Shown here: in pieces, positions 20,449-61,299 of the stretch
Position numbering within the stretch: position 1 is the first letter of the stretch
Layout: each line of letters begins with the position of its first letter
Assembly (NCBI RefSeq): GCF_021278965.1
Contig: NZ_CP065589.1
Span: 1,617,001-1,681,000, forward strand
Direction of reading: 5' to 3'
Length of the DNA: 64,000 nucleotides
Source of the DNA: Chryseobacterium capnotolerans
Lineage (GTDB): Bacteria > Bacteroidota > Bacteroidia > Flavobacteriales > Weeksellaceae
Made by a program: the position numbers and the translations under genes
The notes under the pieces: model-generated
What the model was told of the DNA's origin: nothing
Database searches by the model: none
Seen by the model: only the letters and a program-made list of their open reading frames with translations

Positions 20449-20478
20449 TTTGAAAATAGTTTTATTTAGTTATATTTG
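20449..20478 (+). promoter_or_regulatory. Bacteroidota-type promoter for the small peptide gene
   Basis: TTTG at 20449-20452, an 18-base spacer, then TATATTTG at 20471-20478. This is an excellent match to the -33 TTTG / -7 TAnnTTTG consensus. The predicted start is near 20484, leaving a leader of about 40 bases before the peptide ATG at 20526. Confidence 0.7.
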
Positions 20479-20525: not shown

Positions 20526-20699
20526 ATGAAAAATCTTAAGAAAATCACAAGAGACAGTATGAAGTCTATCAAAGGAGCAGGTCCAACTTTTTGCAGAGTG
20601 GGATATATCTATATGTGTGCTTCTATTTATGAATGTATTCCAGAGCAGGACATTTGGGACTGTGCTTGCGGATGTGTTCCTGTCACAAGAAATTTCTAA
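20526..20699 (+). CDS. Double-glycine-type leader peptide with six-cysteine core (bacteriocin-like)
   Basis: A 57-residue peptide. The leader MKNLKKITRDSMKSIKGAG is of the type seen in Chryseobacterium bacteriocin-like peptides (MKxLKKxTRxxLKxIxGG). The core has six cysteines at positions 23, 31, 37, 46, 48 and 50 with pattern C-x2-GYxYxC-x5-C-x8-C-x-C-x-C. A second peptide at 58341-58502 has the same arrangement. It has its own promoter and terminator, and no transporter, peptidase-transporter fusion or modification enzyme is adjacent. Six cysteines could form three disulfides after export, or bind metal. Function unknown; antibacterial activity is only a possibility. Confidence 0.75.
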   Translation: MKNLKKITRDSMKSIKGAGPTFCRVGYIYMCASIYECIPEQDIWDCACGCVPVTRNF

Positions 20700-23454: not shown

Positions 23455-26400
23455 TTAATCAGGACAAGCCTGTGTAGAAATGCAATGCCAATCCATGGAA
23501 GTGTCACCTTCTTTAAGAGTGTACATCTTCATGCATTTATTGGTGGTGTCATACACCATCATACCTTCTACAGGAGTTGTAATGACCGGAGTTATTCCAT
23601 CAGCTGCAACAGGTTGATTGGATGCGTTAAACTTCACTCTGTTTGGGACAAAACCTTTGGTTTTGGCTTCCATCGCCAGCCATCCGCCTTTTCTTACCAT
23701 TGGCCAGTTGTCTGTACTTCCGGCGCCGGCTCTTCCAAGAGCGGTAATACCCACTTTAGTAGACAATGCAGGATTGCCGGCAGTAGGGAGAGCTCCAGGC
23801 TTATAGCAATAAGTCTTTGCTTCAGCAAAAGTGATGTATCTTATCGTATTATCCGCATTGAAATCATTCATGAATACCCATTTGCTTCCTGTAAATACTC
23901 CAGCAATAGTTTTAACATTTGTGGTGAAAGCATTATCATCAGCTACAATCATCTGAATGTTGTTTCCAGAGGTGAAAGCAGAACCATAAGCTGAAAGATC
24001 TGCCTCAAAATATAGACTTCCTGGAGTATTTGAACGTTGAGACAGCCAAGTTCTCTGGATTCTCTGCATTATATTTCCAGAAATCGTGATGTTGACAAGT
24101 GGTGTTGTCGTGACATTATTGTCTCCCAATAGGAAATACGTTTTGTCATTGGCAAACCCTGTTCGTGCTGCAAGTTGGTTTGGAGAAGCAAAGTCATTGA
24201 TGGTAGCAACAGAAAGAATTGTTCCTGCATTGACACTTTTTGACACTTTCTGTTCAAATGCTTCTATATCATCACGAGATATTCCAAAGATATTATTGTT
24301 GAATGTAGTATTGGTCGCTCCGTTCCATACCGTGTTTCCATCTGTATTCAGATAGTGCTCTGTATTAACCTGTCCCAGTGTAATACCATATTTAATGGCA
24401 AGATAAGAATCCACTCTTCTACGTTCTGCGGCTGTTAGGTTACCAGAACCATAAATGATTGTCTCTCCGAGATTCCCAATAAAACCTCCGTTGTCACTTC
24501 CGCTGCCTGTCCAACGAGTGTCTCCAAATATATGTCCTCCTAAGGCAAGCCCTACACCAGTATAGTTTACAGGAGCAGCGTTTGCAGCACCATTAAGCCC
24601 TCTTGCTAATGTAGTATTGGTAAAGGTATTGTACATAATGCTCGGTATTGTACTGGAGTAAATTAATCCAGAATTAACCATTTGTGTACCACCACCTACA
24701 ACTCTTCTTTCTATTACATTGGTAGTAGGATACATTCCCATATAATCCCAATTTGAAATAGTCGTGTTTATATTATCCATCCCTATGCTTAGGAAGTGTG
24801 GATTGGGACTGCTTGGTGCTGTCATTCCTTCTTTGGTAACTGTAAATATGTCATTGCTGGTATTGGTAACTGTCTGTACGACTATATTACCTAATGTCTG
24901 ATTAATCGCTGTAAAGTTAATCCCCGGATTAAAGTTGAAATAACTTGATGTACCTACAGCATACTTAGGAAGTGCATTAGTTACTCTTTGTGAAACTGTA
25001 GTTCCGTTCCATAGGTCTGTCCATCCGGTTACATCTGTTCCGGTTCCTGTATTATCTGCATTTTTATCAGCTCTATACCAATAAGACAGATTACTGGCAA
25101 CTCCGCCCGGGGCAAGTCCAAAACCTGCAAAAGTGAAGAACTGCCCGTTTCCTAATGTTACATTTACAGTGTTATATACAATTCCATTTACCGTTACTTC
25201 CGTAGCCATTGGAGTAAAGGTATCTGCTGTATCGAACGTTTCATCCGGAGATTGTATCAGGTAAAGATTTTTCACACTTTTTGGCCATGCTACTGTTACT
25301 GTTCCTACATTGTTGGTATTCTGTACTTTCCACACAGACTCAAAACGATAGTTGGTTACTCCATTCGAACCGCCACTATAAGTTAATGGTATAGTAAGGC
25401 TTTGTCTCAAATTGTTGTCTCCTGTTATAAGATATTGTAAATCATTGGCCAATGCTGTAGTATTCGATGCGTTGCTATCTGCAAATCCTGTTGTAGAAAT
25501 AACAAGTTGTTGTCCATTATTCACGCTTCCTGCCTGTTTTTGATCCAATGCTGTGAAATCGTCTTTAGCAATACCAAAGATATTGCTGTTATAACCAGCA
25601 TTAGTGGTTCTGTCCCATACAATACTGCTGGCTGTAGAAAGATAATTTTCACTCAATGTAACCCCATTCTTTACAGCAAGATAAGAGTTTACTCTTGATT
25701 GTTCATTGGCTGTTAACAAGCGGTTATACCATACGATTTCCATAATATCACCAGGGAAAGGTCCAGGTGCGTCCCAACCGGCATGGCCTATTCTCAGGTT
25801 TTTACCATAAATCTGGAACTTATTACCTGCAGGAAAGCCTGAAAAAGATTCATAAGAACCATTGAGTCCTAATTGTTTCTCTCCACCGGGTATAGAGGAT
25901 GTACCACCATTAGCAACTGTATTATTGGCTATGGCAGAAAATACATTGGAAATACCAGTATTAAAAGCTGTAGAAAAATCGGAGGAAGTTATGGTATTAA
26001 AAAATTCATATTGTCTTGGTTTTCCATTGGCAATCGAAACTCCTGGTTCCGCAGCATTTGTATCATCGTCGATCCCTGTGATACGTCCTGTTCCATTAGC
26101 TGTAGTTGGTCTTACTGCTGAAAAGATAGAAGTGTTGGTATTAGGCATCTCTACATTGCCTAATGGGTTCATTAATGCTGCATTATTATAAAAGAATTTA
26201 GAAGAAGTATATCCTGTGGTGTACGGATAGAAGTTGTGGTTTCTGTCCGCTGGGGATAAGGCAACTCCACCCACATTCGGAATATGGTCTGCATTGGCAG
26301 AGTGGTCTTTCCATGCAGCAGCAACAGCTCCTGCATCGTCTGATTTAACCCAGAAGTCAGGTCCAACAACTCCACCTGGTGCCTGTACAAAGCCTGCAAA

Positions 26401-29400
26401 AGTAAAGTACTGTCCATTAGACAATACTACATTGGCCGTATCATATACCACACCATTTACAGTAACTTCTGTAGTCATTGAAGTAAAGGTATCAGTTGCA
26501 TCAAAAGCGGCATCCGTAGACTGTACAAGGTACAGGTTTTTCAAGCCTTTAGGCCATGCAACTGTTATGATTCCTACGTTATTGGTATTCTGTACCTTCC
26601 AGATAGCCTCAAAACGTTGATTAACCACACCATTAGAACCAATGGTGTAAGATAATGGCATTGTAAAGCTTTGTTTCAAACCATTATCTCCTGTCATTAG
26701 GAACTGCATGTCATTAGCCAAACCTGTAGTGTTGGTAGCGTTGCTTTCCGCAAATCCTGTGGTGGAAATAACGAGTTTCTGGCCGTTATTCGTACTTCCT
26801 GATTGCTTTTGGTGTAATAAGGTTAGATTATCCTTTGCAATACCAAAAATATTATTGTTGTAGTTAATGTTAAGGGTTCTGTCCCATATTACATCGCTGG
26901 CTGTGGAAAGGTAATTCTCATTCAATGTAACTCCATTCTTTACAGCCAGATAAGAATTTATTCTGGACTGTTCATTTACTGTTAAAGTACGTTTGAACCA
27001 TAAAATTTCCATAATATCTCCAGGGAAAGCACCTGATGCATCCCAGCCGGCATGGCCTACTCTTAGATTACGGCCATATAGCTGGAATTTATTGGAATTA
27101 TTGAAAGAGGTTGTTTCATAAGCACCATTCAGTCCTAACCTTTTTTCTCCACCCGAAAAAGTAGATGTACCTCCATTGGTAACTGAATTATTTGCTATTG
27201 CTGAGAAAATATTGGAAATACCATAATTAAATGTTGTAGAAAAATCTGTAGAGGTTATAACATTCAGGTATTCATAATGTCTCGGTTTTCCATTCGCAAT
27301 GGAGACTCCAGGCTGGGAACCATAGGTTGCTTCATCATCAATTCCTGTAATACGTCCGGTTCCTGCTGTTGTAGGCCTTACTGCTGAAAAAAATGGACTG
27401 AGATATATTAGGTAGCTCAGCATTGGTAGGGTTCATTGCCGAAGTAGGATTATGAAAGAATTTAGAAGCGGTGTACCCGGTAGTATAAGGGTTAAAATTA
27501 TGATTTCTATCCGCCGGAGATAATGTCACTCCACCCACATTCGGAATATGGTCTGCATTGGCAGAGTGGTCCTTCCATGCTGTAGCAATGGTTCCTGCAT
27601 CATCTGATTTTACCCAGAAATCAGCTCCGGAAACTCCGCCGGGACCAAGGGCTGTAACAGTAATAGTAAGATCGCTGGTACTTGTACAAGTACCGGTGGT
27701 GATAGTCCATCTGAAAGTATATATTCCTGAACTGATAAGCCCTGTAACAGTGGTATTGTACAAAGATGGATTGGTAATCAACGGATCTGGAGCACCTACT
27801 GGTTTTGAAACCAAGGTCCATAAACCTGAAGATGAGGCTCCAGGATTATTTCCATTGAGAGATGCTTCTGAAGCGCCCATTCCAAGGGTTTGATTGGAGC
27901 CTGCATTAGCATTTACCTGTGGGGATACAAATATAGAAAATGTACCCTCCGGAGAAGTTCCTGAGCAGGTATATTCTTTATCAAGGAATCTGGGGTCTAC
28001 TCCTCCTGCATTAGGAACAGGCTTTATTTTGAATACATATTCTCCCTGCTTATCCAGGTTACTTATCGTGGTAGAAGTATTGGTAAGTGTTCTAAGATTA
28101 CTTGCTTCGTAAACAGGAATAGCAGCTCCTGCCGGTTTTGAAACTAAGGTAAGATCATATTTACCCAAAAAACCTTGAAGATAACTAGTATTAACCATTC
28201 CTTGATATATGGCAGGTAAAGGAACAGTAGCCGTTACAATACCTGATCCTGTATAACAGATTGTAGTATTGGGTATAGCCACATTTGGACGGTTACCATC
28301 TGAAATATGAATGTAATAATCCTGACTATTACCACAGACGCCACTTTTAATAGATAAATTAACCACATAAGTTCCCACTCGCCAACCTCCGGCAGGTGGA
28401 GTTACTACTACATTTCTGTTCATCGTCCCTGCTCCATTCAAAATCAAAGTGGGGCTTCCTCCAGGAGGAGCAATCCCAGAATTACTTACTGTGGAGGTAA
28501 GCGTTGCGGGATCTGAGGGGTCAATCTTGAAATAGATGGTAATAGGTACTGTTGTCCCTGCCATATTACAATAGACAGCACCTCCAGTGCCACTTGCAGA
28601 ATAATACTGCATTTGTTCAGGATATGAAGCATCAATAAAGCTTACCAGTTTGGGATCAGCTCCATTGTAATTGTAGGTAATCTGAGGCGTAGTATATGTT
28701 CCATTGGCATTGGTGACCGTTATGGTGAATACATAAGCTCCGGTAACATTTACTCCATTGAAGTAAATTGAACTGTTCCTGATTTGATAAAATGAAATAT
28801 TACCTCCTGCTGGCTGGCTGATAACATTCATGGTAATTGTAGTTCCAAATGCAGGATTACCAGATGAGTTTGCTGTATTGCTTGCAAACATTGGAGACGT
28901 TCCACTCAAACTGATGTATCGGTTGGTATCTGTTGATGGATAGCATCTGTTATTGATAGCAGGGATACTGATTTGTGGATTAGGAATGAACCTGACAATA
29001 GCATCGTCTTCATACCAGCAGTTTGGATTGTTGATGGATGTTATTCTTAATACCGCACGATAAGCTGGATCAATATCATGATTGGCTTTCTTGATAAGAG
29101 TCAGAGTAGGGGCTGCTGTAGTTGTATTAGACATAGTAGCATTTGTGGTCGTGGTCTGGTTATAATATTCCTTATTATAAATGTTGTAGTAAGTCCATGA
29201 AGCTGTATACCCTGCTGGGATTACAGCATTTAACGTTGCTGTTCCGGTATTGGCAGAAATATTGGTAATATCAGGCCCGGCAGTAAAAGATGAAACATCT
29301 CCCGGAGCTGTAATGGTTACCTGTGAGGTTGCTGTTCCGGTAGTACAGTTTTGTGCAATCTGGAATACATAATTTCCGGGAGAGGTCATTCCGGTGACGT

Positions 29401-29632
29401 TGGTATTATAACCTGAAGGAGTTACAATAACCGGGTCCTGAGCTCCGGAAGGTTTCGAGACGAGGGTCCATAATGGATTTCCAACTGTACTTCCTCCCGG
29501 ACTTCCCGATAGATTGGCAGACGTGCCGCAAATGACGGCATTGGCTCCTGCATTAATGTTGCAGCTTTGTGCCGAAATCATCATATTACCTATGATGAGC
29601 AATATGAAGAAAAAGACGGTTTGTTTTTTCAT
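23455..29632 (-). CDS. Giant exported adhesin-like repeat protein, frameshifted
   Basis: The corrected product is about 2058 residues. It has a signal peptide (FFFILLIIGNMMISAQS), then immunoglobulin/PKD-like repeats such as GANAVICGTSANLSG and GSNQTLGMGASEASLNGNN, each closing with a TGLxSxGxYxFxW-type strand. Two nearly identical modules of about 420 residues follow (FWVKSDDAGAVAAAWKDHSA, then LAVKNGVTLNENYLSTAS and AWPKGLKNLYLVQS), then a diverged third (SYLAIKYGITLGQ). The C-terminus is VEGMMVYDTTNKCMKMYTL and WHCISTQACPD, not a classic type IX sorting domain. The frame breaks at an A run of seven (27387-27393) where six is expected: one reading gives ISQSIFFSSKAYN, the other restores ISQSIFSAVRPTT. 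Surface adhesion or matrix binding is inferred. Confidence 0.82.
25112..26378 (-). repeat. Tandem 1.26-kb coding repeat, copy 2
   Basis: This segment aligns with 26379-27643 at a constant offset of about 1264 bases, seen for example from the matching GCAGAGTGGTC blocks at 26297 and 27561. It encodes the second FWVKSDD...TFAGF module. Boundaries are approximate. Confidence 0.75.
26379..27643 (-). repeat. Tandem 1.26-kb coding repeat, copy 1
   Basis: First copy of the adhesin module, highly similar in DNA and protein to 25112-26378. The apparent frameshift at 27387-27393 lies inside this copy; the equivalent site in copy 2 has the intact frame (SIFSAVRPTT), which strongly supports the correction. 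Confidence 0.75.
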
Positions 29633-58340: not shown

Positions 58341-58502
58341 TTATGGTACATAGGGAATACATCTGCAAGAGCAAGGGATCCCAAGCTCCGGCTCACATAT
58401 ACCCATATCGTCGCAAGTATACAAATAACCGGCTGCGCAATAATCAATTCCTCCCTTAATAGCTTTTAGATTTTCTCTTGTAACTTTTTTTAATTTTTTC
58501 AT
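58341..58502 (-). CDS. Double-glycine leader peptide with six-cysteine core (bacteriocin-like), paralogue 2
   Basis: A 53-residue peptide. The leader MKKLKKVTRENLKAIKGG is a clear double-glycine type, and the core has six cysteines at 22, 30, 36, 44, 46 and 48 with pattern C-x2-GYxYxC-x5-C-x7-C-x-C-x-C-x-P. This matches the peptide at 20526-20699 residue for residue at all six cysteines, the GYxY and the PE. It is transcribed leftward in a gap between the O-methyltransferase and yceI genes. No exporter or tailoring enzyme is nearby. Start is the first ATG, followed by the conserved Lys-rich leader. Confidence 0.78.
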   Translation of the reverse strand: MKKLKKVTRENLKAIKGGIDYCAAGYLYTCDDMGICEPELGIPCSCRCIPYVP

Positions 58503-58807
58503 GGTATAATTTTAGTTTGTAAAGGCTAAATATATAAATTATTCTTGGTTTAGGGATTTAACATAAAAATATTTTGGAAAATAGTAAGAAATGTATTGAA
58601 AACAAACAATGATTTTGTTGAACAATATAAAAATCAAAATAGAATAATGAAATAAATATTTTCAGTTTCCGTTTATTTTTTACCATGTTACAATTCCTAA
58701 CGTTGGTAGCGAAATTTACATTTCTTGATGTATGATAAGAGAAGACCCATAAGGTTTGTCTATTTTTGTACCCGAAAACAATAAACTTTTTTAAACAGTT
58801 CAATAAT
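58503..58807. other. Divergent intergenic region between peptide and yceI genes
   Basis: About 305 AT-rich bases with promoters for both flanking genes. TATTTTTG at 58761-58768 fits the -7 box for yceI, 40 bases before its ATG. No convincing -33 was found at 17-23 bases upstream. A 171-codon reverse frame here is a composition artefact crossing yceI. Confidence 0.4.
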
Positions 58808-59789: not shown

Positions 59790-61299
59790 ATGGCAAAGAC
59801 GGACACGAGTAGTTTCGAACAAAAACTTTTTAAAGCTGCGGATAAACTTCGTAAAAATATAGATGCAGCAGAATATAAGCATGTAGTATTAGGATTAATC
59901 TTTCTTAAATATATTTCAGAATCCTTTACAGAAAAGCATAATGAATTAGAAAATGATGAATATTCTGATCCTGAAGATAGAGATGAATATATTGCAGCTA
60001 ATATTTTCTTTGTTCCAAAAGAAGCAAGATGGAGCCATATTCACGCCAACGCAAAGCTACCAACCATTGGCAAAACCATTGATGAAGCCATGGAAGCCAT
60101 AGAGCGTGAAAATAAAGAACTTAAAAATGTTCTTCCTCAGGTGTATGGAAAAGCCAATTTAGATAAAACTTCACTAGGAGAATTGATTGATCTGATTTCC
60201 AATACAGATTTGCAAACTGAAAATGAAAACTCCAAAGATCTTTTTGGTAGAGTCTACGAATATTTTCTTGGAGAATTTGCCAATGCAGAAGGAAAAAAAG
60301 GAGGACAGTTCTATACTCCAAAAGCTATCGTAAAGCTGATGGTAGAAATGATAGAACCTTACAAAGGCCGTGTTTATGATCCGGCAAGTGGAAGTGGCGG
60401 TATGTTTGTGATGAGCGAAAAGTTTGTTCTCGAGCATCAGGGAAGAATAAGTGATATTACGGTTTATGGACAGGAAAGTAACCAAACTACATGGAAACTT
60501 TCTAAAATGAACCTTGCCATACGAAACATCAATTCTAAGTTTGTAGCATGGAACAGTGAAGGTTCTTTTTTTAAAAGATGCTCATCCAGATTTGAAAGCA
60601 GATTTTATTTTGGCGAATCCTCCTTTCAATCAAAGTGATTGGGGAGTAAATATCTTACAGGAAGACGGACGTTGGAAATATGGGGTTCCTCCCAATGGAA
60701 ATGCGAATTACGGCTGGTTGCAGCATATGCTGTATCACTTAGCGCCCCGCGGTGTGATGGCAACAGTTTTAAGTAACGGTTCTCTAAGCTCTAATACAAG
60801 CGGAGAAGGTGATATCAGAAAGAACTTTGTACAGAGTGATTTGGTAGACTGTATTGTGGCATTACCGAAACAATTATTTTACAATACCGGTATTCCTGCC
60901 TGTATATGGATTATGCGCAGAGAAAAAAGTCAGCATCATAAAGAGGTTTTATTTATTGATGCCAGTGAAATGGGCTTTATGAAAGACCGTGTACACCGTG
61001 ATTTATCAAATGAAGACGTAGATCTTATTGCAAAAACCTATCAAAATTGGAGAAAAGGTGAAAACTATGATAATAAAAAAGGTTTTTGTAAAAGTGCAAC
61101 ATTAGAAGAAATAGAAAAGCATTCATATGTATTGACGCCTGGTCGTTATGTTGGGATTATGGATGTGGAGGATGACGGAATACCTTTTGAAGAAAAAATG
61201 AAAATTTTGACAACTACTCTTAAACAACAGATGGGTAAGGAAGAAGAATTGAATAATGAAATTGCAGCACAGTTGGCTAAAATTGGGTTTACGTTATGA
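59790..61299 (+). CDS. hsdM: Type I restriction-modification methylase subunit (HsdM), frameshifted
   Basis: The corrected product is about 502 residues. HsdM_N (FEQKLFKAADKLRKNIDAAE, LGLIFLKYISESFTEKHNEL), N6-adenine methylase domain (GGQFYTPKAIVKLMVEMIEP, YDPASGSGGMFVMSE) and the catalytic NPPFNQSDWG. The frame breaks at a T run of seven (60566-60572) that would need to be six: the broken reading ends SFFKRCSSRFESRF, the corrected one gives SFLKDAHPDLKADFILANPP. The corrected end overlaps hsdS as ATGA. HsdM with HsdS methylates adenine in a bipartite target; loss of frame would abolish methylation and restriction together. Confidence 0.93.

Follow-up and report, generated by a model that had tools for sequence, protein, structure and literature searches.

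Bacteroidetocins (proposed class IIf) are described in PMC6671954 as products of a region that unites the genes for the exporter, a thiol oxidoreductase and the peptide; activity falls there when the oxidoreductase is deleted, and synthetic peptide kills. The precursor that we report here, encoded in a 64,000-nucleotide stretch of Chryseobacterium capnotolerans DNA (the window), resembles them in its double-glycine leader, its short cysteine-bearing core, the combination of a C39-ABC transporter with a thiol oxidoreductase, and its Bacteroidota host (PMC6671954). The gene layout differs: as described, the bacteroidetocin gene belongs to a four-gene region, beside genes for the C39-ABC exporter, the thiol oxidoreductase and a TM protein, whereas the gene at positions 58341-58502 of the window stands alone, 2.46 Mb away from the sole C39 match of the genome. 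Furthermore, bacteroidetocins A and B each contain four cysteines, and bacteroidetocin leaders measure 15-16 residues, as opposed to six cysteines and an 18-residue leader here; killing has been demonstrated for bacteroidetocins (PMC6671954), while the present peptide is a putative bacteriocin.

Two other systems share single traits with this locus. According to the account in PMC9746304, class IIa microcins are unmodified save for disulfides, have GG/GA leaders and use a C39-ABC transporter with a membrane fusion protein; however, verified class II microcin precursors comprise 75-120 aa and come with a cognate immunity gene, while the present precursor counts 53 aa and a Pfam neighbour scan, rather than a dedicated search, made no immunity gene evident among its direct neighbours (an O-methyltransferase and a YceI protein gene). 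In the prochlorosins, as portrayed in PMC10783134, several precursors are likewise served by one promiscuous maturation system, but these peptides are lanthipeptides made by ProcM, and we found no LanC-like cyclase in the genome (0 matches, E up to 0.001). The YGNGVxC motif of class IIa (pediocin-like) bacteriocins is absent from the 53 residues. The leader, for its part, belongs to a family already known at NCBI under the name 'bacteriocin-like protein' (NF047798, leader_Chryseo), a name that many source-named relatives bear; the model spans the 18-residue leader only and is silent on the six-cysteine core, the exporter and the disulfide genes. We did not find the six-cysteine subfamily, or the picture of one exporter serving many precursors, in the open-access literature searched.

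A six-cysteine precursor and its paralogue

The features that concern us first are the following.

58341..58502, minus strand: six-cysteine peptide precursor (53 aa plus stop), supported by its sequence, its relatives and dN/dS
58449..58502, minus strand: leader, residues 1-18, ending in KGG (NCBIfam NF047798 match; C39 cleavage after GG predicted)
58344..58448, minus strand: predicted mature peptide, residues 19-53, C-x7-C-x5-C-x7-CxCxC (sequence and family alignment; presumed cleavage point)
20526..20699, plus strand: paralogue precursor (57 aa) with six matching cysteines (NF047798, 36.0 bits)

The minus-strand frame 58341-58502 translates into MKKLKKVTRENLKAIKGGIDYCAAGYLYTCDDMGICEPELGIPCSCRCIPYVP, followed by a stop codon. 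Its leader scores 30.8 bits against NF047798 (cut-off 23.5), and a scan of the whole genome with this model recovered the same leader place. Behind the leader, the peptide shows the spacing by which we define the six-cysteine subfamily (C-x7-C-x5-C-x(7,8)-C-x-C-x-C and no further cysteine), and its core terminates in CRCIPYVP. The O-methyltransferase and YceI protein genes flank it directly, and a Tex protein gene lies further out (Pfam scan). No Pfam model matched the precursor at its cut-off; PF10439 (Bacteriocin_IIc) reached 11.8 bits against a gathering score of 27.1, and the 52 relatives from a large protein database also gave weak Pfam matches only (E up to 1), PF10439 being among them in 31. 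AlphaFold2 models of the precursor (pLDDT 61.7) and the paralogue (pLDDT 63.8) each contain two short strands of low confidence and are too poor for use; a profile search of solved structures returned matches at chance level only (five sequences, best E 0.24).

A reading of this DNA made from its letters alone (the sequence-only reading) had drawn attention to a paralogue 38 kb away on the opposite strand, and the two genes are indeed about 37.6 kb apart. Both peptides fit the pattern C-x2-GYxYxC-x5-C-x(7,8)-CxCxC, with all six cysteines and GYxY in common, and in each of them a PE starts two residues past the third cysteine, so that the observation of a six-cysteine paralogue pair in the window is confirmed. 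Some of its details need correction. The framework was called identical, which is true of the cysteines, but the third loop counts seven residues at 58341-58502 and eight in the paralogue; the KGG end ascribed to both leaders is present at 58341-58502, while the leader of the paralogue ends in KGA(G). GYxY and PE are features of both window members rather than hallmarks of the family, in which 23 and 21, respectively, of the 59 strict members possess them.

The expectation that further members would exist elsewhere in the genome was borne out. The six-cysteine profile gave exactly three strong matches in it, the two in the window and a third framework member at C1:761249-761410 (about 761 kb), which is a CCxC variant. 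BLAST did not join the 58341-58502 peptide to its two framework relatives; the profile joins all three.

The subfamily in Chryseobacterium and beyond

When 148 genomes of the same genus were searched with the peptide at E up to 0.01, matches came from 120 of them, and many of these matches extend barely beyond the leader. From the stronger matches we collected 59 distinct peptides with C-x7-C-x5-C-x(7,8)-CxCxC, none of which has an extra cysteine; they come from at least 44 of the 148 genomes, and the pattern proposed by the sequence-only reading, whose absence from related genomes would have spoken against it, is present in relatives. The strict set was drawn from 82 sequences, of which 21 were dropped and two CCxC variants (the third member of our own genome, L131, and L077) set aside. 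Strict cysteine spacing was used because an iterated HMM drifted to leader-only relatives; the 27 HMM seeds had been selected for six cysteines, and the spacing filter includes CxCxC, so that both features are partly there by construction. A proline stands two residues past the last cysteine in 56 of the 59 strict members.

In the large protein database, a single-sequence search returned the peptide itself and one relative, and an alignment search returned 58. Among the 52 related proteins, 47 fit the spacing; the other five are one CCxC variant, three proteins with a shorter third loop and P0043, which lacks the third cysteine and hence has five. One relative of 52 aa (P0031, 58% identity) carries the public name 'anaerobic ribonucleoside-triphosphate reductase large subunit', which is impossible at such a length.

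At the level of the family, the six-cysteine profile found matches at E 1e-8 in 68 of 246 genomes, many of them partial. Matches below 1e-14 are confined to the same genus and, outside it, to two genomes that belong to a single genus; in a third genus the match is weaker and interrupted by a stop. The 33 named loci among the matches listed, some of them leader-only, belong to Chryseobacterium (32) and Elizabethkingia occulta (one). No relative was present among the 600 stretches of viral contigs that fit the pattern.

Chance, selection and upstream sequences

A frame of 53 aa that is intergenic and lies where frames overlap on both strands could be a chance reading frame. Nevertheless, the window contains the strict cysteine spacing twice, and none of 60 windows simulated from its base-to-base transition frequencies contains it; the leader passes the NF047798 cut-off, relatives share the framework, the upstream block is conserved (see below), and the core shows a dN/dS of 0.22 among the orthologues of 58341-58502. 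We give a chance frame practically no weight, and the orthologue comparison already refutes it; the earlier claim that these are real genes is sustained.

The test of synonymous against nonsynonymous change likewise came out well under one. The core dN/dS was 0.05 to 0.20 in four further orthologue groups, so that the five groups together span 0.05 to 0.22 for the core (0.08 to 0.33 without the cysteines) and 0.05 to 0.39 for the leader; these are Nei-Gojobori values from pooled, non-independent pairs in orthologue groups set by eye. None of the five groups showed positive selection by this measure. The family had been described as a diversified secreted one with a fixed framework and variable loops. 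The framework and loops find support, and secretion is suggested by the leader and the exporter; diversification holds between paralogues, while orthologues are under purifying selection.

Gene order is partly retained: yceI occurs within about 1.5 kb on the flank in six of the ten closest loci (own locus counted), and yceI also adjoins the gene of a more distant six-cysteine peptide in two additional genomes. Two upstream elements were noted.

58527..58562, minus strand: promoter-like upstream block, GTTAAA then TATATTTA (upstream alignment by eye; putative promoter role)
20450..20478, plus strand: promoter-like TTG-N18-TATATTTG, upstream of the paralogue (upstream sequence comparison)

By eye, TATATTTA is kept upstream of five of the six other orthologues, and so is GTTAAA; the regular expression TTG-N17-23-TAnnTTTG had no match upstream of the 58341-58502 gene. 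The TTG-N18-TATATTTG motif of the paralogue recurs in both other paralogue orthologues examined, displaced upstream by one base, and resembles a Bacteroidota promoter.

Leader-bearing precursors in the genome

The 5.36 Mb genome (one contig) contains at least 74 places that match NF047798 at E up to 1, and at least 42 of these lie over the cut-off, counts that derive from 150 of 165 candidates scored. In 14 control genomes the model never reached its cut-off, but it matched two of them at E up to 1, and the weak leader matches may therefore be due to chance. Of the 42 precursors over the cut-off, 41 carry at least three cysteines. Of the 74 translated leader matches, 65 have an even number of cysteines, six an odd number and three none (37, four and one, respectively, over the cut-off), and in one of the odd-numbered precursors the extra cysteine sits within the leader. 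The binomial p of this excess (1e-13) is too small, given the kinship between copies.

The cores are mostly unlike one another: 41 of the 42 over-cut-off cores fell into 30 groups by BLAST at E below 0.001. The cysteine-free match over the cut-off, at C1:3870866-3870910, belongs to a 22-residue frame and is possibly a decayed precursor. Two small arrays of five leader matches each (C1:3267760-3268763 and C1:488367-489391) suggest local duplication of precursors; one match of the former lies on a 17-residue frame without cysteine.

The exporter locus and its co-occurrence with the leader

Against at least 42 over-cut-off leaders stands a single C39 peptidase match (PF03412), at about 4.13 Mb of C1, in a protein with C39, ABC_membrane and ABC_tran domains. 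It forms part of a same-strand row of VKOR, Thioredoxin_4, C39-ABC and HlyD_3, in which one leader peptide precedes the exporter and another follows it. VKOR and Thioredoxin_4 occupy two frames here (C1 about 4.132 Mb, L033:6917-8424), while in both relatives that were read they belong to a single protein of 502 aa; the VKOR frame measures 352 codons, compared with about 500 to 580 in nearly all relatives among the matches listed. With the pair split in this manner, either the oxidase could be defective or the assembly in error.

Leader and VKOR accompany each other almost perfectly. Within the genus (148 genomes), the leader was found in 136 genomes (leader counts per genome are lower bounds), a VKOR match at E up to 1e-10 in 139 and some C39 match in 145. 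Every one of the 136 leader-positive genomes has a VKOR match, and all nine VKOR-less genomes are also leaderless (Fisher p 3e-12, kinship ignored). Three of the 12 leaderless genomes possess a VKOR match (G029, G052, where it is weak, and G089); the same three have a strong C39 match, in six others the C39 match is weaker (E 1e-32 or more), and three lack it, so that nine of the 12 retain some C39. Exactly one C39 match together with one to 42 leaders, as minimum counts, was seen in 31 of the 148 genomes.

Across the family (246 genomes, 33 genera), with thresholds of E up to 1e-4 for the leader (104 genomes) and up to 1e-40 for VKOR (103 genomes), 102 genomes have both and 141 neither. This agreement in 243 of 246, again with kinship ignored, is inflated by close kin; the exceptions are G202 and G261 (leader only) and G029 (VKOR only). 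Among the matches listed, at least 109 of the 119 genomes with both VKOR and C39 have a same-strand C39 no more than 8 kb downstream of VKOR, and for the remaining 10 the listed C39 matches lie elsewhere.

Proposed maturation and function of the peptide

Taken as a whole, the product of this small gene is probably exported and bridged by disulfides; it would be one of dozens of such peptides, encoded at scattered sites of the genome, that have a leader in common and apparently a single exporter. The 18-residue double-glycine leader would be recognized and cut after GG by the only C39 ABC transporter of the genome, the 35-residue core would leave in trans through the ABC-HlyD channel, and the VKOR/thioredoxin pair would oxidize the six cysteines, probably to three disulfides. 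Once outside the cell, the peptide would most likely serve as a bacteriocin of narrow range, directed at related bacteria. This entire course, from a single hub for cleavage, export and oxidation to a bacteriocin, is the reading that we favor with fair confidence; for antibacterial action taken by itself our confidence falls slightly below the midpoint. We infer the service of one hub in trans from the one C39 match against at least 42 leaders over the cut-off, the two leader peptides in the exporter row, the co-occurrence of leader and VKOR in genus and family, the proximity of C39 to VKOR and the 31 genus genomes with one C39 match alongside their leaders. Disulfides are suggested by the leader matches that carry cysteine, 65 of 71 of which have an even number of them. 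The leader match over the cut-off, the core dN/dS of 0.22 and the fusion of VKOR and Thioredoxin_4 into one protein in the two relatives read also speak for this explanation, as do the bacteroidetocins, a working precedent in the phylum (PMC6671954). The loss of the third cysteine in P0043 and the two-frame state of VKOR and thioredoxin in this genome count against it, as do leaderless genomes with C39 or VKOR, together with G202 and G261, which have the leader without VKOR.

The same export route could also release a signal or an inhibitor, for instance of proteases, instead of a bacteriocin, a proposal that we regard as rather unlikely and yet take seriously. The low dN/dS is unlike an arms race and weighs against a bacteriocin; purifying selection on orthologues, several of which are found at the same place, would suit a signal or inhibitor, as would dozens of mostly unlike cores within one genome and direct neighbours among which no immunity gene is evident. 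This last point tells little, since the bacteroidetocins, as described in PMC6671954, also come without an immunity gene and yet kill; moreover, neither a receptor gene nor a regulator gene stood out next to the peptide gene in the Pfam neighbour scan.

Two further proposals assign the cysteines a fate other than disulfide formation, and we hold both to be very improbable. Modification by some RiPP enzyme, whether to thioethers, of the MNIO type or of another kind, has in its favor one MNIO-family enzyme in the genome and the example of chryseobasin, a Chryseobacterium MNIO RiPP (PMC10214503). However, about 150 kb separate the MNIO gene from the closest of the 74 leader matches, and it is farther still from 58341-58502, which has neither the C-terminal CPACGMG of the chryseobasin precursor nor an adjacent MNIO gene; the lack of LanC-like matches, the even cysteine numbers, and the VKOR and thioredoxin genes adjoining the exporter also speak against such modification, in a search that took in MNIO and LanC-like enzymes. 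Chelation of copper or zinc by the CxCxC end of a secreted peptide would agree with the retention of that end in the 47 of 52 proteins with strict spacing and in the three with a shorter third loop, but the two CCxC variants break the motif, and the oxidase encoded beside the exporter would oxidize the thiols.

Beyond the export of a disulfide-bridged, most likely bacteriocin-like peptide, a broader proposition, which we judge to be evenly balanced, is that Chryseobacterium and some relatives maintain disulfide peptides as a genome-wide repertoire, in which a single leader precedes many unlike, cysteine-rich cores; the precursors, scattered alone or as small arrays, would all depend on one exporter-oxidase hub for maturation in trans and would serve communication or inhibition besides killing. 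The six-cysteine CxCxC peptides would then be one scaffold in a disulfide counterpart of the prochlorosins. If so, one deletable exporter would govern whether some forty or more different cysteine-rich peptides are released, the repertoire could be tested by one knockout, and a large number of small disulfide scaffolds would become available for study. It would also follow that a gene labelled 'bacteriocin-like' by its leader alone hides many core families.

Possible frame breaks in the window

The completeness of the genome is 95.3%, compared with about 99% in most relatives, which makes indel errors in the assembly possible. On the plus strand at 59790-61299 of the window, a type I restriction methylase is present in two overlapping frames through a frame break or an assembly indel: 59790-60638 encodes HsdM_N and the start of N6_Mtase, and 60556-61299 the remaining N6_Mtase. 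A single long surface protein may be represented on the minus strand at 23455-29632 by two frames that overlap (1322 and 764 aa), the second of which contains a PKD-like domain.
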